The position numbers and the translations under genes were made by a program. Below are positions 31-16,446 of a stretch of 64,000 bases of DNA, one piece after another (the stretch's first letter is position 1; every line of letters begins with the position of its first letter). Under the pieces are notes generated by a model. It was not told where the DNA came from. It did no database searches and was given only the letters and a program-made list of their open reading frames with translations. Source of the DNA: Nitrospirota bacterium (GTDB lineage: Bacteria > Nitrospirota > 9FT-COMBO-42-15 > HDB-SIOI813); assembly GCA_020851375.1 (NCBI GenBank), contig JADZCV010000023.1:1-64000 (forward strand), given 5' to 3'.

Positions 31-882
31 CTAACACCTGAGACATCTTCCCTGACGCGGACATGCTGACTGGCGCGTGAGGAAATTCCCTATAATCGCG
101 CGCTTCTCAGCATCCATTATTTCACTATACAGGCAGTCCCTCAGGTCATTGCATGCACTGAATGATACTGGCAATTCCAGCCTGTTTGCCTTTAATAATG
201 CCTGATCGGATAAAATAGTACATGCTGCCATGTCTGCAACTATCCTGCCTCCGCTTAATAAAAGGCAACGGTCGCAAACCTCAAGCGCTATATCCAGGTC
301 ATGGGTACACAAAATAATTGTCTTGTCCGAAAAATTAAGCCATTCTATAAGTCTCCGGCGGCTTGATGGATCCATATTGGTAGACGGCTCGTCAAAGACA
401 AGTATCTCCGGTTGATATGAAAGCACTGTGGCCATGGCCAGACGCTTTCTTTCTCCAAAGGATAGGTGAAATGATGATCGTCCCTCGAAACCGGACAAAC
501 CCATTAGTCTAAGGGCATCGTTTACACGAACAGATATTTCATCTTTAGGAAGTCCAAGATTCTCCGGTCCAAAGGCAACGTCCTCGTAAACAGTGGGACA
601 GAACAACTGGTCATCAGGATCCTGAAAAACCATCCCTACTTTTCTGCGGACTGCTTTAAGATTGTGTCTGTTAACAGCCATGCTGTCAACAGACACGAGA
701 CCGTCTGTAGGCATCAGGATGCCATTAAAAAGGCTCATGAGGGTTGACTTCCCTGCGCCATTAGGGCCGATGATGGCTACCTTCTCGCCATAGCCAATCC
801 TGAACGAGACGTCTTTAAGCACCTCATGACCGTCAGGATAATTGAAATACACGTTTCTGACATCAATGGCTGTCTGGTTCAT
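31..882 (-). CDS. cbiO: ECF-type cobalt/nickel ABC transporter ATPase
   Basis: ATP-binding subunit of an energy-coupling-factor importer, of the family that powers Co2+/Ni2+ uptake with CbiM/N/Q. The 283-residue protein has Walker A GPNGAGKST (about 39-47), a Q-loop with FQDPDDQLF typical of CbiO/EcfA, a signature written LSFGER instead of LSGGQ (140-145), Walker B ILVFDEP (160-166) and an H-loop CTHD. The start is the ATG at 882, preceded by GGAG at suitable spacing; an in-frame start 8 codons earlier lacks this. No CbiM, CbiN or CbiQ gene lies upstream, so either they follow beyond base 1 or the ATPase is an orphan. The substrate (Co, Ni or a vitamin) is not fixed by the sequence. Confidence 0.88.
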   Translation of the reverse strand: MNQTAIDVRNVYFNYPDGHEVLKDVSFRIGYGEKVAIIGPNGAGKSTLMSLFNGILMPTDGLVSVDSMAVNRHNLKAVRRKVGMVFQDPDDQLFCPTVYEDVAFGPENLGLPKDEISVRVNDALRLMGLSGFEGRSSFHLSFGERKRLAMATVLSYQPEILVFDEPSTNMDPSSRRRLIEWLNFSDKTIILCTHDLDIALEVCDRCLLLSGGRIVADMAACTILSDQALLKANRLELPVSFSACNDLRDCLYSEIMDAEKRAIIGNFLTRQSACPRQGRCLRC

Positions 883-1253
883 CCGATAATCTCCGTTATT
901 TACCACAAAGACACAAAGGACACAAAGAATTATATTTCAGATACATCATCCAAAAATGCTCCTACGAACCTGTCATTCCCACGGAACCTGTCCCCGCAGG
1001 ATTCAAGCGGGGAGTGGGAATCCAGAATCAAGCCATCGGTCAGGATTCCCTCTTGCGCGGGAATGACATTTTCGTGAACCTTTGTGAGCCCTGAGCCGTG
1101 AGCGTGCCGAACAGTCGAAGGGCTCATGACTGTTCACCTGAAAATGTCCTCTGATTACTGTCTGGAATCTTAAAATACCTGTGATGGATTTTTGAGTCTA
1201 CTCACGGTTGCCAATGATTGCCTGCCTTTGTGAGTATTTTTACAGAGGCGGGT
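883..1253. repeat. Intergenic region with dispersed palindromic element, copy R1
   Basis: This 371-base gap holds no gene. From 904 to 930 is a CACAAAGACACAAAGGACAC tract that recurs near 50930. From 972 to 1067 lies the core palindrome, opening GTCATTCCCACGG and closing GCGCGGGAATGAC, with an internal CCCCGC/GCGGGG hairpin. A tail with AACAGTCGAAGGGCTCATGA runs to about 1130. The rest (1150-1253) shows nothing recognisable. Short ORFs reading through the palindrome in both directions are artefacts of the repeat. Confidence 0.85.
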
Positions 1254-3458
1254 TTACGTATCTCTGATTAACAATATCCTGCTGGAGTTTGCGATTACCC
1301 CGAGGCTGTTTACTACATGCAGGACACCGCCCATGAAGGGTGAGATAATACCAAATGAACCCAGGCCTATCCCAAGGGCATTTATAACCATGGAATAGAC
1401 ATAGTTCTGTTTGATGATGGACATGGTACTAAGGCTTAATTCACGGACTGCCGGAAGACGGGTCAGATCGTTTGACTTAAGGGCTATGTCCGCAGCTTCT
1501 ACTGCAACATCAGAGCCGCCCGCACCCATGGCAATCCCGAGGTCTGATTTGGCAAGGGCCAGGGCGTCGTTAACCCCGTCGCCAACCATGGCAACAACCC
1601 TTCCCTCAGCCCGTAATTTCTCAATCATCCTGCCCTTGTCTTCAGGCAGCATGTCATAGTAATAATCGCGTATCCCAAGCTGCCTGCTTACGGCATCTGC
1701 AGTCTTCTGATGATCACCTGTCAGGAGGAAAACACTCATCCCTGACTGCTGAAGCCCGTAAATCACGGACAGGGCCTCTTTCCTGGGCCTGTCCACTACT
1801 CCAATAAGTCCCACAAGCTCTGCATCAACTGCTACAAAGAGAAGGGTCTCTCCAGCTCCCCGCATTCTGGTTGCCTCTCCATCAATCCCGTCAACAGCAA
1901 TGTTATGCTGTCTCATCAGTCTTTCACTGCCTACAAGGATGCGCCGCCTGTCCGTCAGTTCAGCAACAACGCCGCTGCCGGCAATAGTCTCAAATTGAAC
2001 GGCATCAATCACCTTTACCCCCCTGAGTTCAGCTCCCTCAAGAAGGGCGCGTGCAAGGGGATGAGGACTCCTCGCCTCTGCAGATGCGGCGAGGGCAACT
2101 ATGTCATCCGGTGAATATCTGTCATGCCTTTGAAGGATTGAGACTACAACAGGCCTTCCTTCCGTAATAGTCCCTGTCTTGTCAAGACATATCGTATCAA
2201 TCCTGCTTGCCTGTTCTATGAATATACCGCCTTTGACCAGCATGTTGCGTTTTGCTGCATTTCCGACCGCAGCGGAAATGGCTGTTGGCGTCGCAATGGC
2301 AGCAGCGCATGGACATGCAGTAACCAGTACAGTAAATGCCCTGTAGAAGTTCCTTGTGACAGCAAAAACAAGTATTGACAGAAGAAATGCGGACGGGACA
2401 AACCATGTGGCAAACCTGTCGGATATGCTCTCAATAGGCGCACGCGTCTCAAGAGATTCCTCAACCATGTGAAGCACACGCGACAGATATGTATCGTCGC
2501 CAACTTTGGTCGCTTTTATATAAATAGTCCCGCTCGTCACTATTGTGCCGGCAAAGGCCGGATCTCCCTTTGCCTTCCCGACAGGAATTGACTCCCCTGT
2601 GATAGGCGACTGATTGACCGCAGCCTCTCCCCCTATAACTTCTCCATCAACAAGGATCTTCTCGCTGCCGTGCGCAACAACTATATCATCCGTTCGCACC
2701 TCTTCAAGGAGGACCCGAACAGGAATCCCGTTTTTTAAAACCCAGGCGCGCTCTTCCCCGACATCAAGCAGATTTCTTATTGCCCGTCGGGACTTCTCTG
2801 CGGTATAGTCCTCAAGGAAGGTGCCGCAGTTCATCAACCAGACCACCTCGAGGGCGACAAGCCCTTCTCCCATAAAGATTGCAATTACAGAGGCAATGCT
2901 GACCATCAGGTCAAGACTTATCCGCTTGTTCTCAACAACATCTTCCAGCCCTTCACGGAAGACAGGGATTCCTGTAAACACGGCTGCTACTGATGCAACA
3001 AGCGTAGCAGGAATGCTCCCGAAAAACGGAAACCATCGCGATAGAAATCTCTGGAAGACGAGCAGCCCAAGAATGGAACCGGCAACAGCTATCCCGGTAA
3101 ACTGTCTGCGTAAAGAGTGGGCGTCCGAAGGTTCAGCATGACATGTCCTGACTGCTGAAAGCTGACGGGCGCCCCGCTTAATCCCGTTCATCTGGTACAG
3201 GACATAAAGGATCTTTGCAAGGGATAGACGTGACGGGTCATAGACTATGAGCAATGTCCCTGTAATATGATTGCCCTTTACTTCAGATACACCCCTGAGC
3301 TTTCGGTATTCCTGCTCATAATGGATTTTAAGATCATCAGAGCCATGAAGGACAGGCATGAAGAAACGTACACGCCCGGGTATCATATGACGAATACGGT
3401 ATTTCGGGCGACTATAAGGCAAGCTGATGTTTATGTTTTTTTTCCGGTTCAGTATCAT
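1254..3458 (-). CDS. P1B-type metal-transporting ATPase with Arg-rich HMA_2-like N-terminus
   Basis: Membrane pump for a transition metal, 734 residues. Seen: TGES actuator loop (about 287-290), CPC metal-site motif in the helix before the catalytic domain (382-384, TACPCAAAIATPTA), phosphorylation loop DKTGT (426-430), SPHPLA, GDGVNDALAL hinge, and paired C-terminal helices. The N-terminus has no CxxC metal-binding domain; it has an Arg-rich stretch (RPKYRIRHMIPGRVRF) leading into an HMA_2-like fold. The ATG at 3458 overlaps the preceding stop by four bases, which favours translational coupling over the GTG at 3524. Last gene of a seven-gene operon. Such an N-terminus occurs in pumps of ferrosome-type loci; the metal (Fe, Cu or other) cannot be assigned from sequence alone. 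Confidence 0.9.
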   Translation of the reverse strand: MILNRKKNINISLPYSRPKYRIRHMIPGRVRFFMPVLHGSDDLKIHYEQEYRKLRGVSEVKGNHITGTLLIVYDPSRLSLAKILYVLYQMNGIKRGARQLSAVRTCHAEPSDAHSLRRQFTGIAVAGSILGLLVFQRFLSRWFPFFGSIPATLVASVAAVFTGIPVFREGLEDVVENKRISLDLMVSIASVIAIFMGEGLVALEVVWLMNCGTFLEDYTAEKSRRAIRNLLDVGEERAWVLKNGIPVRVLLEEVRTDDIVVAHGSEKILVDGEVIGGEAAVNQSPITGESIPVGKAKGDPAFAGTIVTSGTIYIKATKVGDDTYLSRVLHMVEESLETRAPIESISDRFATWFVPSAFLLSILVFAVTRNFYRAFTVLVTACPCAAAIATPTAISAAVGNAAKRNMLVKGGIFIEQASRIDTICLDKTGTITEGRPVVVSILQRHDRYSPDDIVALAASAEARSPHPLARALLEGAELRGVKVIDAVQFETIAGSGVVAELTDRRRILVGSERLMRQHNIAVDGIDGEATRMRGAGETLLFVAVDAELVGLIGVVDRPRKEALSVIYGLQQSGMSVFLLTGDHQKTADAVSRQLGIRDYYYDMLPEDKGRMIEKLRAEGRVVAMVGDGVNDALALAKSDLGIAMGAGGSDVAVEAADIALKSNDLTRLPAVRELSLSTMSIIKQNYVYSMVINALGIGLGSFGIISPFMGGVLHVVNSLGVIANSSRILLIRDT

Positions 3459-3982
3459 GAAGGTTTCATCTGCCTGTTCAGGAGTACAAACGTCCTGAAT
3501 GACCACCAGTACGATAGATACCATGGGATAGCAGGAACAGGCCCAAGCCTGACAAGCTTAGAGGTGCCATAGGCCATAAGGGCTACTGGCAAAAGATAGC
3601 GAAAATCCATATAACCGTTTGTCACGCGTAAAAGCCCTGCATTAAGATCCCGGAATGGTTCCTCAACAACCCTGGCAAGGTGCTGGATCTCCAAACCTTT
3701 AGACACAGACGAACCTGAAGGTTGTGGTTTTACTTCTTCAGGGTCCAGGGACAGCCCTGACTTATCAGACAGATGGAATAAAATGTCCTTTTCATTAATC
3801 AGGGCAACATCGAAATTGACAAGAATACTTCCGGTTATAGGATTGGTTTCCACATTGATGATGCCGGACAAACCTCCAAGTTCCTGCGCCGTCTCCCGCA
3901 GCGTTTTCTCATTACCCCGCAGTTCCTCTGCCCTCACCCTGAGTCGCCCCTGAAGCGTGTTATGAACTACGCGAAGTCCCAT
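3455..3982 (-). CDS. HMA_2-like membrane protein
   Basis: 175-residue protein. The first about 75 residues resemble the HMA_2 fold (QGRLRVRAEELRG, then a segment with ETNPITGSILVNFD), like the N-terminus of the neighbouring ATPase, without a CxxC metal motif. A linker with PEEVKPQPSG follows. The C-terminal third has a hydrophobic stretch around MDFRYLLPVALMAYG and a second near GPVPAIPWYLSYWW, so it is probably membrane-anchored. The ATG at 3982 sits next to the stop of the upstream gene (TTGATG), and the end overlaps the ATPase start by four bases. Probably an accessory subunit of the pump or of a metal-storing membrane compartment (inference). Confidence 0.72.
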   Translation of the reverse strand: MGLRVVHNTLQGRLRVRAEELRGNEKTLRETAQELGGLSGIINVETNPITGSILVNFDVALINEKDILFHLSDKSGLSLDPEEVKPQPSGSSVSKGLEIQHLARVVEEPFRDLNAGLLRVTNGYMDFRYLLPVALMAYGTSKLVRLGPVPAIPWYLSYWWSFRTFVLLNRQMKPS

Positions 3983-4269
3983 CAACCCTTTCCTTCTCTC
4001 GCGGCAACTTCAGCGATGAGATCCTCGAGACGCTCTTTTTCCGCAATCAATTCTTCGAGACCCTTTCCTTCAGCAGTCCCGCCTTTTCTTACAGCGCCGG
4101 CAATCCGGGGCTGGCCCTGCTTTATCAGAGAGACTACGATTCCGGCAGCCATGGCTCCCAGGAAAAAGGTAGACAGCCCGCTCAGCAAACCCCCGCTGCC
4201 GGCCCCGGCCCCTGCTCCTGCTCCCAGAAAACGTCTTCCAAATTGATGCAATGGATGTGGTGGTATCAT
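3982..4269 (-). CDS. Gly/Ala-rich single-pass membrane protein
   Basis: 95-residue protein starting at an ATG with AGGAGG five bases upstream. Order of parts: short basic N-terminus, a GAGAGAGAGSGG stretch (about 16-27), one transmembrane helix (STFFLGAMAAGIVVSLI), then a charged helical tail with EELIAEKERLEDLIAEVAA likely to form a coiled coil. Gly-rich segments next to a membrane helix are known from biomineralisation proteins such as the magnetosome proteins MamD and Mms6; the likeness here is in composition only. Fourth-last gene position between a DUF5132-like protein and an HMA_2-like protein. Function not recognised. Confidence 0.7.
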   Translation of the reverse strand: MIPPHPLHQFGRRFLGAGAGAGAGSGGLLSGLSTFFLGAMAAGIVVSLIKQGQPRIAGAVRKGGTAEGKGLEELIAEKERLEDLIAEVAAREGKG

Positions 4270-4332
4270 ATAATCCTCCTGTGTCTTTTGATGCTCTCGC
4301 TGTTTGGAACAGAATTAAATTCCGTCCCCGAT

Positions 4333-4617
4333 TTATGCCCTTTTGGCAGCCCTTTTAACTTTTGGTTTTACCTCTTCAGCAGGTGGAGCTTCTGCAGTAC
4401 CCTTCTCCGCCTCATACTGTGAGCGCGCCTCTGCCATAAGATCAGCAAAGGACTCCTTGCCTTCCGCGCCGGCGACTTTCATCTGATCTGCAACAGCCAA
4501 ACCGGTTTTCATAGCCTGAATAGCTACCGGCCGCAGCGACTTCATAATCTGAGGCAAAAACTCATATGCGACTACTACTCCAACACCAAGCCAGAATGCA
4601 CGTCTTAAGAAAAACAT
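4333..4617 (-). CDS. Small membrane-anchored protein, DUF5132-like
   Basis: 94 residues with a strong ribosome site (GGGAGGGGTGAAAA before ATG). An N-terminal hydrophobic helix (AFWLGVGVVVAYEFLP) is followed by an amphipathic segment (MKSLRPVAIQAMKTG), an acidic helix with SFADLMAEARSQYEAEK, and a Lys/Arg-rich C-terminal tail (KPKVKRAAKRA). The pattern of one helix plus a long charged tail agrees with DUF5132 proteins, found beside P1B ATPases and HMA_2 proteins. The function is unknown; in this operon it is probably a membrane or compartment component. Confidence 0.68.
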   Translation of the reverse strand: MFFLRRAFWLGVGVVVAYEFLPQIMKSLRPVAIQAMKTGLAVADQMKVAGAEGKESFADLMAEARSQYEAEKGTAEAPPAEEVKPKVKRAAKRA

Positions 4618-4638
4618 TTTTCACCCCTCCCTTCCTTG

Positions 4639-4938
4639 TTACTCCTCAATAATCATATCAAGCGCCTTCGCAATCCTCTCCTCGATCATGTTGCGGAATG
4701 GATACCATATTACGGGAATTTCACCCATTACGACAATTCCCTTCGGTACCAGGACTACCTCGGCCTTGAAGCGTTTCCCAAGGACAGACATCTTGTTGCG
4801 ATGCTCGTTCCACGTATAACTGACAACATGGTCAAATGGTTTTACAACCTCCAACAGGTGCAGCAAATATCGTTCAATACAGGAAACCAATTCGTCCTGG
4901 GCCTTTTTTGATTCCCGAAAGACTACTAATTTAGACAT
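4639..4938 (-). CDS. PHA-granule-family (PHA_gran_rgn) protein
   Basis: 99-residue soluble protein without a signal peptide. The second half (GKRFKAEVVLVPKGIVVMGE, then WYPFRNMIEERIAKALD) matches the build of the polyhydroxyalkanoic-acid-system family: a beta-rich core closed by a helix with an E-x-x-I-x-K-x-L pattern. Characterised relatives are linked to PHA granules, but no PHA synthase or phasin lies nearby, so the role here may be different. The ribosome site is weak. Gene order places it inside the metal ATPase operon. Confidence 0.62.
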   Translation of the reverse strand: MSKLVVFRESKKAQDELVSCIERYLLHLLEVVKPFDHVVSYTWNEHRNKMSVLGKRFKAEVVLVPKGIVVMGEIPVIWYPFRNMIEERIAKALDMIIEE

Positions 4939-5004
4939 ATCGTATCGTAAAAAAATTATAAGAAAATCCCGGAGAAACGTCTACCCAACTTTGCCAATGC
5001 CTGC

Positions 5005-5193
5005 CTACTCCTGCAACGCATTAACCTTCATTTCCTTAACAAGCTGTTCAACGGATTTATTAAACACCCGAAGGCTTCCCTTTCCTATCTTGGTAGCCTC
5101 CAGCTTACCTTCTTTAACCCACCTGTAGATCGTCCACCTGCTGACATTCAGCATAAAAGCGGCCTCATCAGGACGCAGAAGTTCCTTACTCAT
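5005..5193 (-). CDS. Excisionase/MerR-type HTH DNA-binding protein (HTH_17)
   Basis: 62-residue protein that is almost entirely a winged helix-turn-helix: LLRPDEAAFMLNVSRWTIYR (recognition helix), then WVKEGKLEATKIGKGSLRVF (wing). Such domains act as small transcription regulators or as phage excisionases; no integrase is nearby, so a local regulator is more likely. The ATG at 5193 lies after GGAGGAGGAAGTCTA and overlaps the previous gene's end by eight bases, so the 42-residue upstream extension is rejected. Confidence 0.8.
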   Translation of the reverse strand: MSKELLRPDEAAFMLNVSRWTIYRWVKEGKLEATKIGKGSLRVFNKSVEQLVKEMKVNALQE

Positions 5194-5677
5194 TAGACTT
5201 CCTCCTCCTGCCCTTGTGATGAAAATTTCTATTTTTAAGATATCGCCAGGCCATAAAGGCGGAAATCGCAAGAGGAAGGTGCCCCCCGGCTCCTCCTGCA
5301 CCACCGGCCATGACCCCATGTTTCAAAAGGTCCAACAGGATAAAATGGTTATGATGAAATATGCCCCGCCCCCACTTGCCTTCTCTCCTTTTGATATGCA
5401 CAGGAGGAGGGCACTTGGGCATCTCCTCAGCGCTCTCAGGAAAAGGACAATGGTGAATGGCCTCAACAAGGGAATCCCTGGAAAGAACCCTGCGATTGAA
5501 GTAAATTATAACAGTCCCGGCATGCACACATACTTTATAGTGATAAATACCTCGCAGTTCCGACAGCATCGTCTTGAGTGCGGAACTATTTTTGATACTC
5601 CATTTTATCTGCGGAACACTGAATCTAACACGCCCTTTGATCTCATGAATCGTTGAAATTTCTGTAACACATCCCAT
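5186..5677 (-). CDS. HMA_2-like membrane protein, first gene of the metal ATPase operon
   Basis: 163 residues. The N-terminal about 80 residues form an HMA_2-like domain (IHEIKGRVRFSVPQIK, later GTVIIYFNRRVLSRDSLVEA) that shares the GRVRF motif with the ATPase of the same operon. A histidine-containing linker is followed by a GGAGGAGG stretch, a hydrophobic segment (LPLAISAFMAWRYL) and a very basic tail (HHKGRRRKSNE). The ATG at 5677 has AAGGAGGG seven bases upstream; the longer 5725 start has none. A double-terminator leader precedes it. Together with the Gly-rich 95-residue protein it gives two proteins with a Gly-rich stretch before a membrane helix. Confidence 0.75.
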   Translation of the reverse strand: MGCVTEISTIHEIKGRVRFSVPQIKWSIKNSSALKTMLSELRGIYHYKVCVHAGTVIIYFNRRVLSRDSLVEAIHHCPFPESAEEMPKCPPPVHIKRREGKWGRGIFHHNHFILLDLLKHGVMAGGAGGAGGHLPLAISAFMAWRYLKNRNFHHKGRRRKSNE

Positions 5678-5713
5678 AGCGTTTCCCTCCTTATATATAA
5701 CAGAATGAAAAAC

Positions 5714-5766
5714 AAAAAAGACCATAAAGGTCAGGGCAATATGCCCTTAAGAAACCTCCATGGTCT
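5714..5766 (-). terminator. Second intrinsic terminator of leader B
   Basis: On the minus strand AGACCATGGAGGT pairs with ACCTTTATGGTCT around an inner GGGC/GCCC hairpin and is followed by six T. It lies only about 37 bases before the HMA_2 start codon. Compared with the other copies, GGCC is replaced by GACC and the opposite side by GGTC, a compensatory change. Confidence 0.75.
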
Positions 5767-5781
5767 CAAAGTGTCAAAAAT

Positions 5782-5837
5782 AAAAAAAGGCCATGAATGC
5801 CGCCCGCTTCCTGCGGGCTGTTGACCTTCATGGCCTT
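5782..5837 (-). terminator. First intrinsic terminator of leader B
   Basis: Minus strand: AAGGCCATGAA pairs with TTCATGGCCTT, with an inner CCCGC-AGGAA-GCGGG hairpin, followed by a run of seven T. It shares the GGCCATG stem with the leaders of the CooT-like gene and tonB. Confidence 0.82.
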
Positions 5838-6040
5838 GATTATTTCTTGTCGCTTAAGTCTTTTTACTGTTATTACTTAAACTACTAAAGAGGTTCGCCT
5901 CTTCGTTATTGATTATTATTAACACGACACTACTGAATCTGTCAATACAATTTTGGGGTCAAACAGTAATAGTATAGCAGAAAATACCAGCCTAAAACTG
6001 AAATTATGTCACATCTGTTAGCAATGATAGGCATACGTCA

Positions 6041-6283
6041 TTAGCTATGCACTTCTTTATTAACCCGGCCTTCGCTGACATTCCTGGACTCGTTCACCTT
6101 TTCAAGAATTATCTTATGCTCAAGCAACCGGATTCTAAGGACCCTTGCATTAAGAAACCTCTGCTCTCCTGACAGACCTGTCAGGCATAATCTCCCGCTC
6201 TCCAACGGACGTATCTCTGCAACACCATCCATATATAGCTCCTCCCTGCCATCGCTGAACACATAGGCGCTCACCTCACACAT
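6041..6283 (-). CDS. cooT: CooT-like nickel-binding protein
   Basis: 80-residue protein starting MCEVSAYVF with the family's pattern: short sheet with DGREELYMDGVAEIRP, a GEQRFLNARVLRIRLLEHKI core and a strand-closing ILE. CooT family members are small dimers that bind Ni(II) through the N-terminal Met-Cys; in Rhodospirillum CooT takes part in nickel supply to carbon monoxide dehydrogenase. The tail after residue about 60 is longer and charged. Two in-frame starts both have good ribosome sites: ATG 6343 after GGAGGATTATTTC and ATG 6283 after AAGGAGGCGTGCC. The second begins MCE as the family does and is preferred. It lies directly behind leader A. Confidence 0.8.
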   Translation of the reverse strand: MCEVSAYVFSDGREELYMDGVAEIRPLESGRLCLTGLSGEQRFLNARVLRIRLLEHKIILEKVNESRNVSEGRVNKEVHS

Positions 6284-6383
6284 GGCACGCCTCCTTTCGT
6301 GTATTGCCTTCATACAGATCATTCTGTCTATTCTGTCACACATGAAATAATCCTCCTCTGTTTTGCCCTTGTCTCAATAAAAT

Positions 6384-6435
6384 AAGAAGGCCATGCAGGC
6401 CCGATCCATCGGGTTTAGGCCTACATGGCCTTCTT
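6384..6435 (-). terminator. Intrinsic terminator of leader A
   Basis: Minus strand AAGAAGGCCATGTAGGCC pairs with GGCCTGCATGGCCTTCTT (one U-G wobble) around an inner CCCGAT-GG-ATCGGG hairpin; the last bases form the T-rich tract TTCTTATTTT. It sits about 40 bases before the upstream cooT start, so read-through is required for expression from this promoter. Confidence 0.8.
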
Positions 6436-6451
6436 TACAAGATACAAAAGC

Positions 6452-6517
6452 TCAGAAGACTGAGATTTTATATAACGCCTGTCCGGTCGGCTTCATTCTG
6501 AAGCCAGCCCCCTTCAT
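6452..6517 (-). CDS. Possible 21-residue leader peptide in leader A
   Basis: ORF reading MKGAGFRMKPTGQ and ending ISVF, with AAGG six bases before the ATG and the stop 17 bases before the terminator. The tonB leader has an ORF at the same place starting MKRGGFKR. The shared MK-x-x-GF-[KR] start may be a real peptide or a by-product of the shared hairpin 1 sequence. Confidence 0.3.
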   Translation of the reverse strand: MKGAGFRMKPTGQALYKISVF

Positions 6518-6622
6518 GAGGGCCTTGCGAACAACTTCCGTTACCCTTAAAGATACCGGCTGTCTTGTCCGGAGTCAACCAACCTTTGCCGCTCCATACA
6601 TCCGTCTGTGACGGTTTAAGTG

Positions 6623-9600
6623 TTAAGACACCCTTCTTCTCCATCCTATGACTACCAGCGTGATCAGAATAAGAAAGCCGGTCAGGAACAGATAAGGGAC
6701 CGGTTTTGGGGCAGCCGCCCCGCCTGGAATTACATCTTCTATCTCGTATCCTTTCAGGATCGTTTTGCCCCGCTCTGACGGAGCAGACAAACGGCCAGGG
6801 GATGCAAAGGCATTTGTCTGAAGCGGCTGCTGCCCCGGATCTCTGACTGCCTGCAACGACTTTGAGAGAAGCCTTGCCTGTGGGGCGAGTCCTGGTATGT
6901 TGGCCAGGACAGAGGAGGCAAGTTTTACAAGTTGGGAATTGTTGCACATATCGCAGGCAAGACCAACCTCATCGACACTGCTGGCAAACTCTCTTGACAG
7001 GGTTTCGATCACTTCCCTGTCAGGCTTCCAGTAACCTTTCCTCGTTGTCTCGAGCATCCTTGCGACAACAGCCTGATACGCCCACATATTCCTGGACTGC
7101 CTGAAGAACTCTTTTATACTAAGCCCGTTCCTGTCAAGTACGTAGGTCTCGTACATTTCGTTCCACTTGGCCTCATCAACTGCCTCAGGCACTGTGACCT
7201 GCCATCCCCAGAGGTTCTGCACTGACAGGTTGATATGTTTTGCCCCGGCATAGCCTTCTTTCATCATGCCTTTGATGTATACGGGGTTCAGATAGCGTGT
7301 ACGCATCTCGCGTCCCATCATCTTCTCCAGCGTCTCCTGGCGCTCCTGCCCGGGATCAGCCAGATTGCTCACATAGACCTCAGGGCTTGTGCCGTCCACT
7401 GTCCTGATTGCGAGGACGGCGCCTCCCAGATACTGAAAGAAATCATCACCATCCAGGGACTGGTGCAGGCTGCTGGAGCGGCTGTGCACGGCGACCTTCG
7501 TACCGGACAGTGCAGTCTTTAACATCTCCTGGCCCACACCCTTTTCTCCCGCATCTCCCCAAAAACCCTGGCCATACATATAACTCATCCGCATAAAGTA
7601 GACGTCCGCCACCTGGCTTTCCTTGTCCCACGAATGGGAATGCTCTGCGATAGCAGCAATATTGGTACCGTAAGCCCCGGGAGGCATGCTGAATATCCGC
7701 ACCCCGGCCAGCCGCGCCGCCACATCCGGAGCAACACCCTGTGCCTGAAGCATCGCCTCAGTCTTTTCCGAATTAATACGAACAATATTGTCCTGCTCGT
7801 CCTGTTCGCGTGCGACTGTTGCCGTCTGGTCCATCAGAGGAACGAGGTTGGCGAAAAGGTCCCGGTATTCTCCTGATGTGATGATGGTTACATCAATACG
7901 GGGCCGTCCCAGCTCACTGCGGGAAATGGCCTCAACCCCGCGCACCGTCCCATGATTGTCCCATACCGGTCTCACACCCATCAGATACATGATCTGCGCC
8001 TCAGTTATCCCTTCATGGCGCATGGTCTCCACACCCCATAATTGATACGTGAGTTTGTCAGGAAAGACACCGTGCTTTTTCTTATAGGTGTCTATCAATT
8101 CCCGGGCAAGGCGGGCACCGATAGCATATGTTGATGCACCGGGGATCCTGGTGGGATCAAATGAATAGAAATTACGCCCTGTGGGCAGTACGTTGGGATT
8201 GCGCAGCGGTTCCCCGCCCATTCCGGCAGGGACAAACCGGCCAGAAAGACCCAGAATCAATGAGTTCATTTCATTCCTGGCGCTTTGCCGGATTTTGCCT
8301 TCCAACTCTGTCGTCATGGTTGCGCGCTGCTCAGGGGTTAAGCTGGCATTAGCTGACGCAATGGCCTCTGCAGTAGTGTGAACAAGTTTGTCCTCAGGTA
8401 CGACACCGAGGGTATGAAGCCCGTGAGGGGCCTGCTTTTCCGCGAGTTCATCGAGATAATGCTCCAATTCGTGAATTGACTCATCACCCTCTTCATCGTC
8501 CCCGTGTTCGTGTTCGTGCTCATGTTCACTCGACTCAGGCCTGAGTCTGGCTATCCCCAGGTCCTTTAAAATTCCCATCTTTTCCGCCAGCTCATTGATG
8601 TCTTTCAACCGTGCCTCAGCCAGGGCCGGGCTCTTTTCGACAGCAGCAGAATAGTCATTAAGCCTGGCCTTTAGTTCTCTCAACTGAGGGTTCAGCGTGG
8701 CCTTATCCGTGGGAGGTGTCATATGATCTATCATCACCCCCATGCCGCGGCGTTTCGCCTGAATACCCTCACCAGGATCGTCTACAATAAAATAATATAG
8801 ATTGGGTATGTCTTCAAACAGATACTCCGGGGAATCACTGTAGGCCAATCCCACTTCCTTTCCAGGCAGCCACTCGTGCGTGCCGTGGGTCCCGAATTGC
8901 ACAATCGCATCCGCCCTGAATTCCTTACGCAGCCAGAAATAAAAGGCCAGATATTGATGGGACGGCGGGAGCGTCACATCATGCAGCACCTTATCCACGT
9001 GATCCGACCATCCCATGGCCGGCTGTGGTGACAGCAGGATGTTGCCATACTGAACCATCGGGAGTACGAAGTACTGTTTCCCGGCCGTATCAGTATAGGC
9101 CATCATGTCGTTTTTCTCGGGCTGGCCCCAGCTCGCTACAATCTCTTTCTGAGAAACCGACGGGAGTTCTGAAAACCAGCGTTTGTACGTTTCCATCGGG
9201 AGCAGAACGGCCCGTCCGCTACGGGCGAGGGTATAGATTTCCTTTATGTTCCAGCTTGGGATATTGCTCCCGTAATTGACAACTGCATCCTGCAGTTCGG
9301 TCTCGTTTTGAGGCATCCCTGTCACGCTATAACCATCATCCATCAGGCGGCTCATCACCTGCCACAGACTCCGTGGCACCACGTTCAGGTTTGAAGCGCC
9401 AATACGTTCTTTGCCCGACGGAGAGTTGAAGTAATGCAGCAACACCCGCTTCTCCGGATTGGGTTTGTGCCGCAGATTAATCCACTTTTCCACACGCCGC
9501 GCCAGCATCTCAACCCTTTCTGGGATAGGACGCTCTTCAAAATACGTCATACCTGTTTTAGGGTCTGCAATCTTCTCCTTTGTCGCAAACACGGTCGGCT

Positions 9601-10588
9601 GAATCAACCCCCCCATCTCTGCCCGGCCGACCTGCCAGCTCCTCTCCATAATATCCAGACCAGTAGGCGATACCTCCCACTCTGCCAGTGATTTTGATGT
9701 CAGTGAAATGGCATCTATGATCGGAACACCCAGGCGCTCATGCAAAGGCAGTGTCTTGTCAGGTGTTACACCAAATTTCATGCTGATAGCGATCACAGCC
9801 TCCACACGCGGCTTACCATCAGCATCGAACAGGAATTTCTCCACCGGGAGTTCCGGGGGATAACCGTAAGCAGGCAGGACATTAAAGCCGCGCCGTTCCA
9901 GGGCTGCAATTAGTGCATCTATGTGACGGGAGCTGTTCGCCTGCGCATTGGACTGATAGAACAAAACGGAAACCCAGGGGCGTCCTTCCACATAATGTGG
10001 ATACCCGGCAAGATACTTGTTGAAGTCGGTATAGGTTTTCTTTGTAGTGGCCTCATAAATGGCAACATCCGGCACCACCTTAACCGGTTGGTAGGTGAGA
10101 TCAAACCCTTGTTTGCTCAGGGCATACAATATGCCGTTCCTCAGATTCTCCTGTCCCCCGGTTTCGAAATACCGCCGCATCTCCTCATCCGTAAGGATGC
10201 CGAGCGCTTTGACTTCATCGTTATAACCAGGGCCCACGGCATACACCTTCCCGCCCCGCTTTATCGCTTCAAGCAATTCCGGCTTCAGTTCGTCAATGAT
10301 AGCACGTCCCCGTACGATGATAATCACCAGTTCTGAGCGTTTCAGAAATTCCATGTCCTGCCCGCGCAGTCCGGTGGAAGAATATACCTTCATACTGACA
10401 CCGGCAAGAGCGGACTGGCTCAGCGACAGCTCCTGTACAACATCAAGGGCCTGTTTGGTTGACACATCTCCCAGCAGAAGACTGACGCGGGTCAGCTCCG
10501 CTGCGAAGGCATTCGGACCGGCAATCCAGAACACAAAGAGGACAATCCATCCGATGAAATTAATACAGATCCATTTGCGCAAGTTCAT
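6623..10588 (-). CDS. Exported CobN/HmuS-like metallochelatase
   Basis: 1321-residue member of the CobN/BchH family (large subunit of cobalt or magnesium chelatases). It has a Sec signal peptide (WICINFIGWIVLFVFWIAG, cleavage near AFA-AE) and a C-terminal membrane helix (LFLTGFLILITLVVIGW) before RRRVS, so it acts on the periplasmic side. Family cores seen are QFGTHGTHEWLPGK, YPDSPE-like YSDSPEYLFED and MRMSYMYGQGFWGD. A His/Asp/Glu loop (SSEHEHEHEHGDDEEGDE, about residues 690-707) is a likely metal site. No CobS/CobT or ChlI/D ATPase partner is present. Together with DUF2149 and an ExbB-like channel this is the arrangement of HmuS, a CobN homologue linked to removal of iron from haem; cobalt or another tetrapyrrole remains possible. 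ATG 10588 follows AGGGAG. Confidence 0.85.
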   Translation of the reverse strand: MNLRKWICINFIGWIVLFVFWIAGPNAFAAELTRVSLLLGDVSTKQALDVVQELSLSQSALAGVSMKVYSSTGLRGQDMEFLKRSELVIIIVRGRAIIDELKPELLEAIKRGGKVYAVGPGYNDEVKALGILTDEEMRRYFETGGQENLRNGILYALSKQGFDLTYQPVKVVPDVAIYEATTKKTYTDFNKYLAGYPHYVEGRPWVSVLFYQSNAQANSSRHIDALIAALERRGFNVLPAYGYPPELPVEKFLFDADGKPRVEAVIAISMKFGVTPDKTLPLHERLGVPIIDAISLTSKSLAEWEVSPTGLDIMERSWQVGRAEMGGLIQPTVFATKEKIADPKTGMTYFEERPIPERVEMLARRVEKWINLRHKPNPEKRVLLHYFNSPSGKERIGASNLNVVPRSLWQVMSRLMDDGYSVTGMPQNETELQDAVVNYGSNIPSWNIKEIYTLARSGRAVLLPMETYKRWFSELPSVSQKEIVASWGQPEKNDMMAYTDTAGKQYFVLPMVQYGNILLSPQPAMGWSDHVDKVLHDVTLPPSHQYLAFYFWLRKEFRADAIVQFGTHGTHEWLPGKEVGLAYSDSPEYLFEDIPNLYYFIVDDPGEGIQAKRRGMGVMIDHMTPPTDKATLNPQLRELKARLNDYSAAVEKSPALAEARLKDINELAEKMGILKDLGIARLRPESSEHEHEHEHGDDEEGDESIHELEHYLDELAEKQAPHGLHTLGVVPEDKLVHTTAEAIASANASLTPEQRATMTTELEGKIRQSARNEMNSLILGLSGRFVPAGMGGEPLRNPNVLPTGRNFYSFDPTRIPGASTYAIGARLARELIDTYKKKHGVFPDKLTYQLWGVETMRHEGITEAQIMYLMGVRPVWDNHGTVRGVEAISRSELGRPRIDVTIITSGEYRDLFANLVPLMDQTATVAREQDEQDNIVRINSEKTEAMLQAQGVAPDVAARLAGVRIFSMPPGAYGTNIAAIAEHSHSWDKESQVADVYFMRMSYMYGQGFWGDAGEKGVGQEMLKTALSGTKVAVHSRSSSLHQSLDGDDFFQYLGGAVLAIRTVDGTSPEVYVSNLADPGQERQETLEKMMGREMRTRYLNPVYIKGMMKEGYAGAKHINLSVQNLWGWQVTVPEAVDEAKWNEMYETYVLDRNGLSIKEFFRQSRNMWAYQAVVARMLETTRKGYWKPDREVIETLSREFASSVDEVGLACDMCNNSQLVKLASSVLANIPGLAPQARLLSKSLQAVRDPGQQPLQTNAFASPGRLSAPSERGKTILKGYEIEDVIPGGAAAPKPVPYLFLTGFLILITLVVIGWRRRVS

Positions 10589-10616
10589 GATGATTTCTCC
10601 CTGAAGAAGACTTCGT

Positions 10617-10955
10617 TTATTCAGGCACATAGATTACCTTTCCGTCATTTAGCTGATATGCTGTTCCAAGCCTTTTCCCTTCCCCGCTCATGCTTTTATC
10701 CGTAACTTTTTTTGCCTTGATCTCTTTCCCCTTTTTCTCGATGATCTGCAATTCACCGTCAGCGGTCTTCTTCATGATCGTGACATCTGAGTTGGGGTCC
10801 ATCAGATCCATCATATTGTACGCCATGAACAGGGCAATCATCATACTCACGATAAAGACCACACTCACATCAAAGAGATTAGCTACTCCGGCAATGGGGT
10901 CTTCCAGAGGCTCCTCGTATTTTTCAAATCGTTTCCGTCTTTTCAGAAATTTCAT
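10617..10955 (-). CDS. DUF2149 membrane protein
   Basis: 112 residues. The N-terminus EDPIAGVANLFDVSVVFIVS is the conserved entry of DUF2149, followed by one transmembrane helix and a periplasmic part ending QLNDGKVIYVPE. In build it is like ExbD (short cytosolic part, one helix, periplasmic domain). It overlaps the ExbB-like gene upstream by 32 bases and has GGAGGTGGAAG before the ATG. DUF2149 proteins repeatedly stand beside CobN-like proteins and MotA/TolQ/ExbB channels in anaerobes, where they probably form the ExbD-like half of a proton channel (inference). Confidence 0.85.
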   Translation of the reverse strand: MKFLKRRKRFEKYEEPLEDPIAGVANLFDVSVVFIVSMMIALFMAYNMMDLMDPNSDVTIMKKTADGELQIIEKKGKEIKAKKVTDKSMSGEGKRLGTAYQLNDGKVIYVPE

Positions 10956-11529
10956 CTTCCACCTCCAGCATTGAATCCCTGCCTTTTAAGTTTGAACGCC
11001 TGAGCGTAAGTTCTGTGATATATTCCATCTCCCGTATATCCGCTCTCAGCCATTTTTCTTTCACTGTGGACATGAGATAGGCCAGGACACTGCAGGCAAG
11101 GCCGACGACCACGGTGGTGAAGGCTGTGACCATGCTACCGGCCATCTTGGGCATATCCCCCTGCGCCATGGCTGACAGGGCAATTCCCATTGGTATAAGT
11201 GTGCCCATAAGTCCCAGTGCAGGACCAACACGTATCGCAAACCGCACCTTGTCCAGTGACTTAATGATTTCAAGCTCCGTACTCTGCAGCAGTCTTTCAA
11301 TAGTTATATCAACAGTCGGAGACCCGGTAAAAACTTCTGCCTCAACGTCCTTCTGATATTTGTTTACCACAAATGAATTTCCCTGCCGGCGTTCCATGTA
11401 CTCACGTAAAAAACCACCGAAAGAAATCACCATCCAGAAGACAAGCAGAACGAGTCCAGCCACTACCGGGAAGAATAGGGCGGATGATATTACATAGAGA
11501 AATGTCTCAAGCCCCGCAAGAATATTCAT
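10924..11529 (-). CDS. MotA/TolQ/ExbB-family proton channel protein (second set)
   Basis: 201-residue inner-membrane protein. An N-terminal helix (VAGLVLLVFWMVISFGGFL) is followed by a cytosolic loop and two further helices. The family core is RVGPALGLMGTLIPMGIALSAM (about 108-129) and VVGLACSVLAYLMSTV. GGAGGGTTCCAA precedes the ATG, which overlaps the stop of the upstream gene by four bases. It is distinct from the ExbB at 15023 and pairs with DUF2149, so the locus encodes two proton-channel modules, one probably for TonB and one for the chelatase. Confidence 0.87.
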   Translation of the reverse strand: MNILAGLETFLYVISSALFFPVVAGLVLLVFWMVISFGGFLREYMERRQGNSFVVNKYQKDVEAEVFTGSPTVDITIERLLQSTELEIIKSLDKVRFAIRVGPALGLMGTLIPMGIALSAMAQGDMPKMAGSMVTAFTTVVVGLACSVLAYLMSTVKEKWLRADIREMEYITELTLRRSNLKGRDSMLEVEDEISEKTETI

Positions 11530-12227
11530 TTGGAACCCTCCTTTTTTTTACGTGAAAAAAATCCAATTAATGCTGCTGCAAACAAAATAGCGATTACGCC
11601 AATGCTGTTATTAAAAGACGTACCTGCCCCCTCTGCCAGAAATGACTTAAACACACCCCGGGCCTCGTCAATCCTTGCCGGAAAGACCATGGCAGCAGGA
11701 AAGTAGACGCCCAGTCCCAGCATAATAAGGCCAAGCCTCATCCGGCTGGATACCGGTAAATCGTCCTTCTGCTGCAAAAAACCTCCCCTAAAAGAGAGAA
11801 GAGCTATAAGGATAAATAAGAAACCTGTAATAAGTCCGGCTGATAGCGGTTTCAGGTCAAACAGCGGTGCGGCCATCCATGAAGAAAAGACAGCCGCAGT
11901 GAGCAGGAAGGGACACGGTAAAATAAGAAACCATGTGGTCCGTACAGTATGGGCCTTTTCCCGTATCAGGTAGTATCCCCATAGCGCCAGCCCTGTAAGC
12001 ATGAAAAAAGGAATAATGATCCTGTCTTTCAGGACAGTGGATACGATGCTCATAATACGATCAGAGAAAATCGCCGTGATTACAAACAGCGCAAGATACA
12101 GGATGAGAACCGCGGATATCCCGCGCCACTTCAATTTACCGCTTCGGAGTCCATATCCTGTTTTAACAGCAAACACAGCAAGACTCAGCAGCATTCCTGC
12201 CATTAGCATAATCATATTTGTTTCCAT
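11526..12227 (-). CDS. DUF2162-like polytopic membrane protein
   Basis: 233 residues with six or seven predicted transmembrane segments spread over the whole length (for example MLMAGMLLSLAVFAV, GISAVLILYLALFVITAIF, IGVIAILFAAALIGFF) and a basic end RKKKEGSK. It has the length and helix pattern of DUF2162, a predicted transporter family found beside CobN-like, DUF2149 and MotA/ExbB genes, including in methanogens. ATG 12227 follows AGGAAGGCAGAT; the 8-residue longer form lacks a site. A 17-bp hairpin separates it from the receptor gene. Confidence 0.7.
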   Translation of the reverse strand: METNMIMLMAGMLLSLAVFAVKTGYGLRSGKLKWRGISAVLILYLALFVITAIFSDRIMSIVSTVLKDRIIIPFFMLTGLALWGYYLIREKAHTVRTTWFLILPCPFLLTAAVFSSWMAAPLFDLKPLSAGLITGFLFILIALLSFRGGFLQQKDDLPVSSRMRLGLIMLGLGVYFPAAMVFPARIDEARGVFKSFLAEGAGTSFNNSIGVIAILFAAALIGFFSRKKKEGSK

Positions 12228-12252
12228 ATCTGCCTTCCTGATCCCGCCCACA

Positions 12253-12291
12253 CACGTCCCGGTCCGTCAATCAGTGACGGACCGGGACGTG
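12253..12291. other. Intercistronic 17-bp perfect hairpin
   Basis: CACGTCCCGGTCCGTCA and its exact complement flank a five-base loop. It lies between the receptor stop and the DUF2162 start, without a T-run on either strand, so it is more likely an mRNA-stability or processing element than a terminator. Confidence 0.75.
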
Positions 12292-12314
12292 GGAACAGTG
12301 TCTCTGATGCATAC

Positions 12315-14603
12315 CTATAGTTTTATTGTCAATTCACTGAACCATGACGCTCCAGGTGCCTTCGTGCTGTAGTAGTAGTCCCGGTCAAGAATGTTGTCCG
12401 CAGACAGAGAGATGGAAGCCGCTTTCGTAATCCGGCAGGCGACCTTCGCATTAAGCAGGAAATAAGGATCATATGAACCGGGGACATTTTTTATTTTGTC
12501 TGTATTGCCATCAGTAGTCCATATTTTGCCGACGTAGTTCCCTGTAACTGAAGTAGAGAACCTGCCGAATTCAAACTCCCCGCCGATATTAAACATCTGG
12601 TCCGGCACATAAGTGAGAGATTTACCTACAGAGGCTGGAGACGCCGCATTCTCCTGCATTTCAGTATCATTGTAAGTGTAGTTAGTAAAAAGTCTGACGG
12701 CTTTGGATGGGCGATGTTCGACTTCCAGCTCAAAACCGTCTCCCTTTGCCTTTCCTGCATTGGTCTTCACTGAATAGGTTGTAACGCCTGCCGGGAGACC
12801 GATACCGCCTGGTACAGGCGTAACACTTCTGCTGTAAATCATGTTTTTAAAGTTATTCTGGAAATAGGCAGCCCTCATGATGACACTCTTCCCTAAGGCC
12901 TGCTCCACACCTAAATCCCACGAGGTGAGTGTTTCCGGGATCAAATCCGGGTTGGGGTCACCGTAATTCGTCGCCGAGTTGCGGCTTCTCCGGTATAATT
13001 CGAAGACAGTCGGCGGCCTGAAGGCCTTGCCCCATGAGGTCCTTACAGTTGTGGCAGTAAACGGCTTATAGACCAGTGCGGCCTTGGGGCTTAGCTGTGA
13101 TTTGCTGTTTTCCGGATAATCCGCTGTTGATGGTGTTGTAGACAGGTATGCCTGGCCGTCCTGTGTCTTCCACCAGTCGTGGCGGGCGCCGACATACATC
13201 GTTACATTCTCCAGGATCATTATCTCATCCTGAAGAAACAGGGCATATGTGCTGTTTTCCCCCTTAGCAGTACTGTATAGGGTTGTTTTGGAACCTTCAT
13301 CTTTCCAGTTTGTCAGGACATAATCTTTGGCGTCAACCTTCTCATTTTGCCATGCCCCTCCGGCAACCAGCAGATTTCTTCCCCCAACCGGAAACGCCAC
13401 CTGTAAATCACTTGAATACTGTTTCGATGGTGTTTTTGTATACAATCCAGGCCCCCCTGTTCGCGTCACTGTGCCTGCAACAACACCCGGGGTAATAAAC
13501 CATGACGGCTGGTCAACAAGACCGAGGGACAGCTTTAGCTTTGCGGATCCCCACTCATTCTGATATGTCCCGTTGTAGACGTTTTGTTTGGTTCCGCCAT
13601 CGCCCGTCAGAAAAGAGCTCTCATTGAGCGCAGGAATAGTTGCCGGCGGAGGGGTAGGATTTGCCATTGAAGCGTATGAGTAGACAGGGGCTCCGGAACT
13701 ATTTCTAAGGTAAGTATGAGGTTCATCATAACTGTACTCTGACCGGCTCCGGCTGACGTTAAGCCTTATAGAAGACGTCCCGGTTGGAGTGAGCCCGCCA
13801 TGCAGGGAAATATTGTCGTCCCACCAACCGTTGTCTCCTGCATTTCCAATGATCCGCTGGGTGCCCCCGGTTGTCGTGGTTTCAATGATCACCCCTGTGG
13901 TCCCGGGCGGGAAGACAGTATTTGTTGTTGTACGGTGAGTCGTAGAATATCCGTTGGTTGCCTGATAACGGTAACCCAGCAGCAGGCTGAGTTTGTCTCC
14001 AATTTTGTCTCCATAGGAGAGGTAATATTTGCGGTAATCGTCCGGAGCATCTCCGCGGTCCAGACTGGTGCCGTATCCGCTTTGCAGCGAAAATTCTCTC
14101 TGCACAGGCAGCCTGGTAATCACGTTTACAACCCCGCCCCCGGCATTTCCTCCGTAGAGACTCGAGAACGGGCCGCGGACAACCTCGACCCTTTCCACAT
14201 CCTCCGGCGCAAGCCCCCCGTAAGATACTGCCCTTGTATAACCGTCGTTCAACGAAACGCCATCCAGCATAAGCAATGTCCTTGAACCGTTTGCAGGCAT
14301 CCCCCTCAATGAGATGAACGCCTGGCTATCCATCAACCCCTTTGATCTTCTATTGAAAACTCCAGGGGTGAGGCTTAATATATTGTCTACCGACTTTATA
14401 TTTCTCTTCTCAATCTCCCCTCTGGTAACGACAGAGACACTCCCCGGCGCCTCTGAAACAGGTTTTTCCGTCCTGGTTGAGATTGAGATCAGTTCCTCCA
14501 TAGTCGCATCATTTGCAAAGGACAGGGGAGAAAAGCACAGGACCGATAGTCCAACTGCTGCTGCCCCCATCACCATTTTCTTCGTCCTTCTGATTCCTTT
14601 CAT
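12315..14603 (-). CDS. TonB-dependent outer-membrane receptor
   Basis: 762 residues: signal peptide (MVMGAAAVGLSVLCFSPLSFA), plug domain from about 45 to 165 (VSVVTRGEIEKRN, ISLRGMPANGSRTLLMLDGV, VERVEVVRGPFSSLYGGNA, GGVVNVIT) and a 22-strand barrel ending FSELTIKL. An FRPP-VFELY motif and GDPNPDLIPE occur where haem and vitamin receptors carry FRAP and NPNL; this does not settle the ligand. In context (TonB, ExbB, ExbD, CobN-like chelatase) the ligand is probably a metal tetrapyrrole or metal chelate. ATG 14603 follows AAAGGAGAGAG. Confidence 0.92.
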   Translation of the reverse strand: MKGIRRTKKMVMGAAAVGLSVLCFSPLSFANDATMEELISISTRTEKPVSEAPGSVSVVTRGEIEKRNIKSVDNILSLTPGVFNRRSKGLMDSQAFISLRGMPANGSRTLLMLDGVSLNDGYTRAVSYGGLAPEDVERVEVVRGPFSSLYGGNAGGGVVNVITRLPVQREFSLQSGYGTSLDRGDAPDDYRKYYLSYGDKIGDKLSLLLGYRYQATNGYSTTHRTTTNTVFPPGTTGVIIETTTTGGTQRIIGNAGDNGWWDDNISLHGGLTPTGTSSIRLNVSRSRSEYSYDEPHTYLRNSSGAPVYSYASMANPTPPPATIPALNESSFLTGDGGTKQNVYNGTYQNEWGSAKLKLSLGLVDQPSWFITPGVVAGTVTRTGGPGLYTKTPSKQYSSDLQVAFPVGGRNLLVAGGAWQNEKVDAKDYVLTNWKDEGSKTTLYSTAKGENSTYALFLQDEIMILENVTMYVGARHDWWKTQDGQAYLSTTPSTADYPENSKSQLSPKAALVYKPFTATTVRTSWGKAFRPPTVFELYRRSRNSATNYGDPNPDLIPETLTSWDLGVEQALGKSVIMRAAYFQNNFKNMIYSRSVTPVPGGIGLPAGVTTYSVKTNAGKAKGDGFELEVEHRPSKAVRLFTNYTYNDTEMQENAASPASVGKSLTYVPDQMFNIGGEFEFGRFSTSVTGNYVGKIWTTDGNTDKIKNVPGSYDPYFLLNAKVACRITKAASISLSADNILDRDYYYSTKAPGASWFSELTIKL

Positions 14604-14634
14604 TACACTCTCTCCTTTCATGATAAGATTACTG

Positions 14635-15036
14635 TTACCCCTTCTCTGTCACAATGCTGAAGTTTGTTACCCCTGAAAAACGTACCTCGTCTATTACACT
14701 TACCAAAAGCCCGACATTAACATCCCTGTCCGCCTTGATCCGCAGGAAATCCTTTTCAATATCGCTTAGATTGTCCTTAATGACTCCCTGCAGGTCTCTT
14801 AGCTCTACATTTTTATCCAGAAAATAGATTTCGCCGCCACTTGTGATGAGTATCGTTTTGACCGTTTCATTCTTTGCCTCTGCTGTCTTTGATTCCGGCA
14901 GCCTGATCGTTATAGCCGGCTCCTTTACAAGATGGGATGAGAGCATAAAAAATAGCAGCAGCAGAAAGACTACATCCACCAGCGGGGCAATATTGATGAA
15001 ATCATGGCTGTGTTTCTTCCTTTCAAATTCCATCAT
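14635..15036 (-). CDS. exbD: ExbD-type TonB energy-transduction protein
   Basis: 133 residues with the ExbD build: short cytosolic N-terminus, helix INIAPLVDVVFLLLLFFML carrying the conserved Asp (VD) used in proton translocation, and a periplasmic domain ending VRFSGVTNFSIVTEKG. It overlaps the exbB end by 14 bases and precedes the receptor gene. It works with ExbB and TonB to power the receptor. Confidence 0.92.
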   Translation of the reverse strand: MMEFERKKHSHDFINIAPLVDVVFLLLLFFMLSSHLVKEPAITIRLPESKTAEAKNETVKTILITSGGEIYFLDKNVELRDLQGVIKDNLSDIEKDFLRIKADRDVNVGLLVSVIDEVRFSGVTNFSIVTEKG

Positions 15037-15646
15037 TACACCTTACAGAAGGTTCTAATACCGTTGATCTATTGCCTGACCGTTGAAATTTATCGCTTAC
15101 ACTCTTGTCCCGTGCCCGTCTTTTCTCAACAAGGCTCACAGTCAATTCCTTCAGCACAAAGGCAATCTCATCCGCCTGTTTGTCGAGATAGTGATGTCCA
15201 ATATGTATGGGCATGGCCACCAGAAGCCCTGCTGCAGTGGTAATCAATGCCTCCCAGATGCCACCTGCAAGCATGGAGGGGTTAACGCTTGTGCTGGTGG
15301 CAATTACCATGAAGGCCTTTATCATCCCTGTAACTGTGCCGGTCAATCCTAACAGTGGGGCAATGGCTGCGATGAGCCCAAGCCAGCTTAGCCCCTTCTC
15401 CATCTCCCTTATCTGCCGTGTTCCGATAACTGCCAGACCCTGTTCATCAGAGCCACTGCCGAGACCATCCACTATGGGTTTGAATATAGCCGGAGTCTCC
15501 GATAACAATTCGTCAACCGGCCTTTCTATCTCTTTCAAAATCTTTCTGTACTGGATAAACTTGTTGATCAGTATGGCCACCCCTGCAAGGGAACAGAGGA
15601 GTATCGGGTACATCAGAAAACCACCCTTTGAAAAAAGTTCTATCAT
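15023..15646 (-). CDS. exbB: ExbB-type proton channel protein
   Basis: 207 residues, three membrane helices. The first is YPILLCSLAGVAILINKFI; the core pair is LSWLGLIAAIAPLLGLTGTV (about 107-126) and GGIWEALITTAAGLLVAMPI. Forms the inner-membrane motor with ExbD and TonB. It overlaps tonB by one base and exbD by 14 bases, a tight translationally coupled order tonB-exbB-exbD. The C-terminal tail (RARDKSVSDKFQRSGNR) is longer than usual and polar. Confidence 0.92.
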   Translation of the reverse strand: MIELFSKGGFLMYPILLCSLAGVAILINKFIQYRKILKEIERPVDELLSETPAIFKPIVDGLGSGSDEQGLAVIGTRQIREMEKGLSWLGLIAAIAPLLGLTGTVTGMIKAFMVIATSTSVNPSMLAGGIWEALITTAAGLLVAMPIHIGHHYLDKQADEIAFVLKELTVSLVEKRRARDKSVSDKFQRSGNRSTVLEPSVRCNDGI

Positions 15647-16338: not shown

Positions 16339-16357
16339 AATTCAATACACAAAAAAC

Positions 16358-16413: not shown

Positions 16414-16446
16414 AACAAGATGCAAAAAACTCAGATGACTTAAGTT

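Follow-up and report, generated by a model that had tools for sequence, protein, structure and literature searches.

Does an operon built around a P1B-type ATPase, with HMA_2 and small membrane proteins beside it, make an iron-storing ferrosome, or does it serve another metal? The question is raised by seven open reading frames (ORFs) on the minus strand at positions 1254-5677 of a 64,000-nucleotide stretch (hereafter the window; positions 1 to 64,000 of contig JADZCV010000023.1, assembly GCA_020851375.1) from a Nitrospirota bacterium. An earlier sequence-only reading had taken these ORFs for a ferrosome-like operon. All seven were recovered, and the promoter and leader in front of them are of a kind that also precedes nickel/cobalt uptake genes in this genome. 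Taken together, these data lead us to a reading that we hold at about an even chance, namely a scaffolded P1B-6-like metal pump whose genes are part of a nickel/cobalt regulon.

The ATPase among P1B pumps

The ATPase (1254..3458, minus strand) is of the P1B type (TIGR01525, 543 bits) and has the HAD/E1-E2 domains. Its N-terminus carries an HMA_2 domain (residues 43-114, E 4e-12) with GRVRF at residues 50-54 and no CxxC, which bears out the earlier statement that GRVRF stands where a CxxC domain might be expected. In a maximum likelihood tree of 50 sequences, E. coli CopA and ZntA included, 20 HMA_2-type P1B ATPases formed one clade (100/100) apart from those two exporters. The window ATPase is therefore set off from CopA/ZntA-type exporters by both its clade and its lack of CxxC. 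Neither a grouping with Cu/Zn exporters nor an absence of conserved HMA_2 partners, which had been named beforehand as evidence against a ferrosome, was seen.

Within this clade the window ATPase groups with L063 and L060, two ATPases from the same phylum (100/99). These three join three actinobacterial CtpC-type ATPases, two of which are annotated as adjoining DUF1490 genes, in a six-row group (95/78) that falls below the level at which support was starred. The rows that we call Fez-like, on account of the P1B-6 features described in PMC9374683 and with no characterised FezB among the tree rows, lie in a different subclade. Trees uniting the window clade with the Fez-like side (p 0.14), or CtpC with the Fez-like rows (p 0.24), were not rejected; the window ATPase leans weakly to CtpC-type zinc pumps rather than to Fez-like P1B-6 pumps. 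At the L063 locus (6164-11037) the P1B-6-like ATPase is preceded by feoA, feoB and a gene resembling methyltransferases, with a weak nicotianamine-synthase match.

The transmembrane (TM) motifs divide these pumps further. P1B-6 ATPases have an HN motif in TM6 and a TM4 without CPC, and CtpC has been termed P1B6-like owing to its combination of HN and CPC (PMC9374683). TM4 reads ACPCA in the window ATPase, SCPCA in L060 and L063 and ACPCA in the CtpC type, whereas Fez-like rows have DYSC or DFIC without CPC. In TM6 the window ATPase has LHVVN, as against LHN or HN in both CtpC-type and Fez-like rows. With ACPCA and LHVVN it thus departs from P1B-6 at both positions, and it has the CPC of the CtpC type, beside which the tree weakly places it (95/78), but not the HN. 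Judged by these motifs, the window clade is a third combination, because CPC with LHVVN differs from CPC with HN (CtpC) and from the Fez-like state without CPC.

The best full-length matches in a plasmid collection were actinobacterial ATPases of 38-40% identity, two of them annotated beside DUF1490 genes, and a single search of genome contigs returned only two distant matches. The closest ATPases of the phylum by plain similarity (L008-L012, L016 and L024) were set aside, being mostly CxxC or CSC pumps without accessory genes.

Partner proteins and a small scaffold family

Upstream of the ATPase, and all on the minus strand, lie the genes for HMA2b (3455..3982), a Gly-rich single-TM protein (3982..4269), a 94-aa small membrane protein (4333..4617), a 99-aa protein (4639..4938), a 62-aa HTH_17/excisionase-type DNA-binding protein (5005..5193) whose gene overlaps the end of the next, and HMA2a (5186..5677). 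Start codons were read from the sequence, at the higher coordinate of each gene. The ATPase start at 3458 is probable; it overlaps the preceding stop (ATGA), and the ORF is open to 3524. Since the HMA2b start likewise lies within the stop of the Gly-rich gene (TGATG), the Gly-rich, HMA2b and ATPase genes are probably translationally coupled.

Two further HMA_2 proteins had been proposed, and Pfam agrees (E 4e-17 and 4e-9); the three HMA_2 domains (PF19991) of the operon score 46.9, 63.0 and 37.0 bits against a cut-off of 30. The small helix-turn-helix regulator is likewise confirmed (HTH_17, E 7e-10). Of 296 genomes of the phylum, 48 have HMA_2 domains, mostly clustered with an ATPase, and because such clusters recur the grouping here exceeds what chance would be predicted to give. 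No HMA_2 domain was found in the other searched genomes of the same family, and the genome itself has this cluster only. The 99-aa protein, by contrast with its earlier description as granule-associated, scores 20.6 bits for PHA_gran_rgn (PF09650), below the cut-off of 26.6, and a search of 396 genomes of the phylum gave no relative. Structure models of this protein and of HMA2a reached pLDDT values of 45 and 39.

Two Gly-rich runs had been placed next to a membrane helix. Both are present, but a clear TM segment (residues 31-49) lies beside GAGAGAGAGSGG only. Beside GGAGGAGG, which in HMA2a accompanies a Cys/His-rich linker and a C-terminal helix, no segment rises above the hydropathy threshold used.

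The 94-aa and Gly-rich proteins are members of one small TM-scaffold family; the earlier reading had noticed neither this kinship nor the leader held in common with nickel/cobalt uptake genes. Among 2715 ORFs, a hidden Markov model (HMM) built from the small membrane proteins of clusters in other genomes of the phylum, with the window proteins left out, picked out the 94-aa protein (8e-16) and the Gly-rich protein (4e-4). When the search was iterated from the window protein, every member gathered was encoded next to an HMA_2-type ATPase, and the first unrelated ORF came at 0.15. The Gly-rich protein ends in LEELIAEKERLEDLIAEVAA, and its C-terminal (E)ELxxxKERLEDLIAE helix recurs in Fusobacterium and Priestia proteins of P1B-6 clusters; in profile comparison these proteins together match the scaffold family (E 2.7e-6, probability 88). 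A ferrosome- or effluxosome-like architecture, of which the sequence-only reading had named the ferrosome, is thus borne out by an ATPase outside the CopA/ZntA type, by conserved HMA_2 partners and by Gly-rich TM counterparts in P1B-6 clusters. Homology of the family to actinobacterial DUF1490/PacL is only suggested: the 94-aa protein matches DUF1490 at 5e-4 (20.4 bits against a Pfam cut-off of 28.4), and its tail, KPKVKRAAKRA, is not His-rich and has no C-terminal metal-binding motif.

Other clusters of the phylum (L059-L078) and those of Fusobacterium and Priestia (L052, L053) likewise place HMA_2 and scaffold-family proteins beside an ATPase. Unlike the window, they mostly have other TM4 classes (DYSC, DYGTG, DFGTG) or P2-type cores, and none was found with the 99-aa gene or the window leader. 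In nine of them (L059, L061, L062, L068-L071, L075, L076) an HMA_2-type P1B ATPase with DYGTG or DFGTG in place of CPC accompanies scaffold-family proteins. In five others (L065, L066, L067, L072, L074) ATPases of about 1000 aa, in which HMA_2 domains are joined to a P2-type core (AAVPEGLP), are encoded with HMA_2 and scaffold-family proteins; several of these loci adjoin an S-adenosylmethionine-synthetase-like gene, by sequence inspection.

A leader common to nickel/cobalt genes

The operon is preceded by a promoter and leader (5700..5945, minus strand; about 250 nt together), with TTGACA at 5945 and a -10 of TTAATA at about 5922. The leader opens with a 5′ hairpin, GAAGAGGCGAACCTCTT (5904-5888), followed by two strong U-tailed hairpins (5838-5785 and 5767-5715; folding z -8.6). 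The hairpin 20-mer AACGAAGAGGCGAACCTCTT has three copies in the 2.5-Mb genome, and allowing 3 mismatches gave no further site. Besides the copy here, one stands before an OprB porin-DUF4198 operon and one before a NikL-CbiM-CbiQ-CbiO operon, the latter with a NikL matching NF058648 at 3e-51; NikL and NikK are markers of nickel systems (PMC2667541). Moreover, the leader of the ATPase operon is homologous to the OprB-DUF4198 leader across the promoter and both hairpins (E 7.6e-42). It is also kept in 8 other genomes of the family, in each case before OprB-DUF4198 or NikL-CbiMQO genes in the stretches examined. An alignment of 13 leaders shows a nearly invariant hairpin (GRAGAGGYGAACCUCUUC), followed by a terminator stem of the pattern GGCCAUG..CAUGGCC, with two pairs showing double changes.

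A covariance model scores the ATPase leader (5772-5908, minus strand) at 123 bits and finds three further leaders of this type in the window. They precede the gene for a CooT-family protein (6041..6280, minus strand; leader 6372-6498, 41 bits), a TonB block (leader 16346-16468, minus strand, 50 bits) and, on the plus strand, the gene for a CKHC-HMA protein (leader 17347-17477, 57 bits). The conserved leader also lies at G000:C49:56-186 and G000:C49:3209-3344, and in genome G009 a leader found by the model precedes a homologue of the His-tailed CKHC-HMA protein. Because leaders of this type stand before NikL-CbiMQO, OprB-DUF4198, TonB, CooT and His-rich HMA genes, the operon belongs, as judged by its position and its conserved control region, to a nickel/cobalt regulon. 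Like the NikKMLQO/CbiMNQO nickel/cobalt ECF transporters, it has the promoter and leader common to such genes in this genome; unlike it, those are uptake systems without a P-type ATPase. No NikR_C domain was found in the genome, which has two FUR-family genes, and the two FUR-family proteins are candidate regulators at the leader.

In nine genomes of a single family this leader RNA stands before nickel/cobalt-type genes, and it has no credible match in Rfam; it is a candidate metal-responsive attenuator or riboswitch. The small CKHC-type HMA protein (17507-17827, plus strand), with its long His-rich tail and related leader, is a candidate nickel/cobalt chaperone. Further neighbours on the minus strand are a CbiO-type ECF ATPase at the contig edge downstream (31..906), a CobN/Mg-chelatase-type protein (6623..10630), the N-terminus of which looks signal-like on inspection, and the TonB block itself, which comprises ExbB, DUF2162, a TonB-dependent receptor, a second ExbB and TonB (10924..16338). 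A large ankyrin-repeat protein (Ank_2, E 1.7e-129) lies at 19686-21605.

Metal, mechanism and rival explanations

The metal, the direction of transport, the clustering and the co-expression set out here are proposals from sequence. Because the control region is common to nickel/cobalt uptake genes, the probable metal of the pump is nickel or cobalt, not iron. The ATPase would move a divalent metal, probably Ni2+ or Co2+, out of the cytosol, with the metal coordinated by the CPC of TM4 and the His of TM6. Given the lack of CxxC, its HMA_2 domain and the two HMA_2 partners may be docking or regulatory modules. The 94-aa and Gly-rich proteins would gather the pump into clusters or stabilise it, by helix packing and by their conserved E-D-x-x-A-E helix, in the way that PacL acts on CtpC. 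Transcription would start from a promoter and leader copied from nickel/cobalt uptake operons and, since the leader is common to both, the pump and the uptake genes are probably made together. Joint production with the uptake genes would speak for a role in storage, buffering or trafficking more than for simple detoxification; compare the fez genes of C. difficile, which are Fur-repressed and so made under iron limitation (PMC12574912). That the scaffold-clustered pump fills vesicles of a ferrosome-like nickel (or cobalt) compartment, keeping nickel for hydrogenases and CO dehydrogenase, we regard as highly improbable.

Several points weigh against the proposed scaffolded pump of a nickel/cobalt regulon. 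Uptake and export genes are usually under opposite regulation, and a common leader is evidence of common ancestry of the control region, not of substrate. In the nearest clade, the L063 ATPase is encoded behind the iron genes feoA and feoB and the other ATPase lies beside nif/mod-type genes. Moreover, the HMM hint that the 94-aa protein belongs to DUF1490/PacL did not survive hhalign (probability 8).

The position of L063 behind FeoA-FeoB is also what favours a true fez ferrosome, in which Fe2+ would be loaded into membrane-bounded granules, the HMA_2 and small proteins would shape the vesicle and Fur would control the genes. The operon does share its part types with P1B-6 and fez (FezA/FezB/FezC) clusters, there are two FUR-family genes, and no site in the window is more Fur-like than the palindrome GTTAATAATAATCAATAAC, which overlaps the -10 (15/19 against the E. 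coli Fur consensus; expected 0.12 per strand). However, this palindrome sits in a promoter common to nickel/cobalt operons and varies in the homologous promoters, where it is not kept as a Fur box, and no such site was found in the examined stretch upstream of the genome's own feoB. In its CPC and lost HN the pump also differs from the Fez-like ATPases, which have DYSC and LHN. Pfam found no DUF4405/FezC-type domain in the operon proteins, whereas the Desulfovibrio-type FezC is a DUF4405-like cytochrome (PMC11334425). Membership of the Fez group, which the sequence-only reading implied, is therefore not supported, given the CPC in place of DYSC, the lost HN, the weak CtpC placement and the missing FezC; an iron substrate finds no backing in the leader, and the iron reading of the operon is weak. 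The TonB receptor, two ExbB, TonB, DUF2162 and CobN-like chelatase (6623-16338, minus strand) resemble Bacteroidota hmu heme loci. This block may be a heme-iron system with an HmuS, like HmuRSTUV (PMC12583661), which would suit a ferrosome, or it may be a nickel/cobalt system, which its leader type favours. On balance we consider a true ferrosome improbable.

An efflux platform for zinc (or cadmium or copper), in which the small proteins would cluster an exporter of excess metal, is modelled on the PacL1-CtpC effluxosome of Mycobacterium tuberculosis, a DUF1490 protein with a P1B6-like ATPase (PMC9374683, PMC13043812). That system and the window operon have in common the GRxR N-terminus, the CPC and small single-helix scaffold-like proteins; the identity to actinobacterial homologues, the weak CtpC sister position and the weak DUF1490 match also favour such a platform. 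The window system differs in its LHVVN, in having two scaffold-like and two extra HMA_2 proteins, and in its lack of a His-rich metal tail; the CtpC sister position is unstarred, with alternatives not rejected, the leader is of the nickel/cobalt uptake type and the operon has no ArsR/SmtB-type regulator. We therefore judge a zinc platform unlikely. Chance capture of the promoter would make the leader uninformative on substrate and leave a pump for some other metal, such as manganese. Among the genomes searched the leader stands before such an operon only here, so that a capture looks recent. The operon lies, however, between the CooT/TonB/CobN genes and CbiO, and position and leader agree because its CooT and TonB neighbours carry related leaders. 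We consider a chance capture with another metal as substrate improbable.

In summary, knowledge of P1B-6 and P1B-6-like pumps is still poor, although two such pumps form membrane platforms, the ferrosome and the PacL effluxosome. With CPC and LHxxN/H, the operon described here adds a third transmembrane-motif class. It also connects pumps of this kind, in several phyla, with a single family of small scaffold proteins and appears to place one such pump in a nickel/cobalt regulon. This suggests that the ferrosome/effluxosome design may not be confined to iron and zinc.

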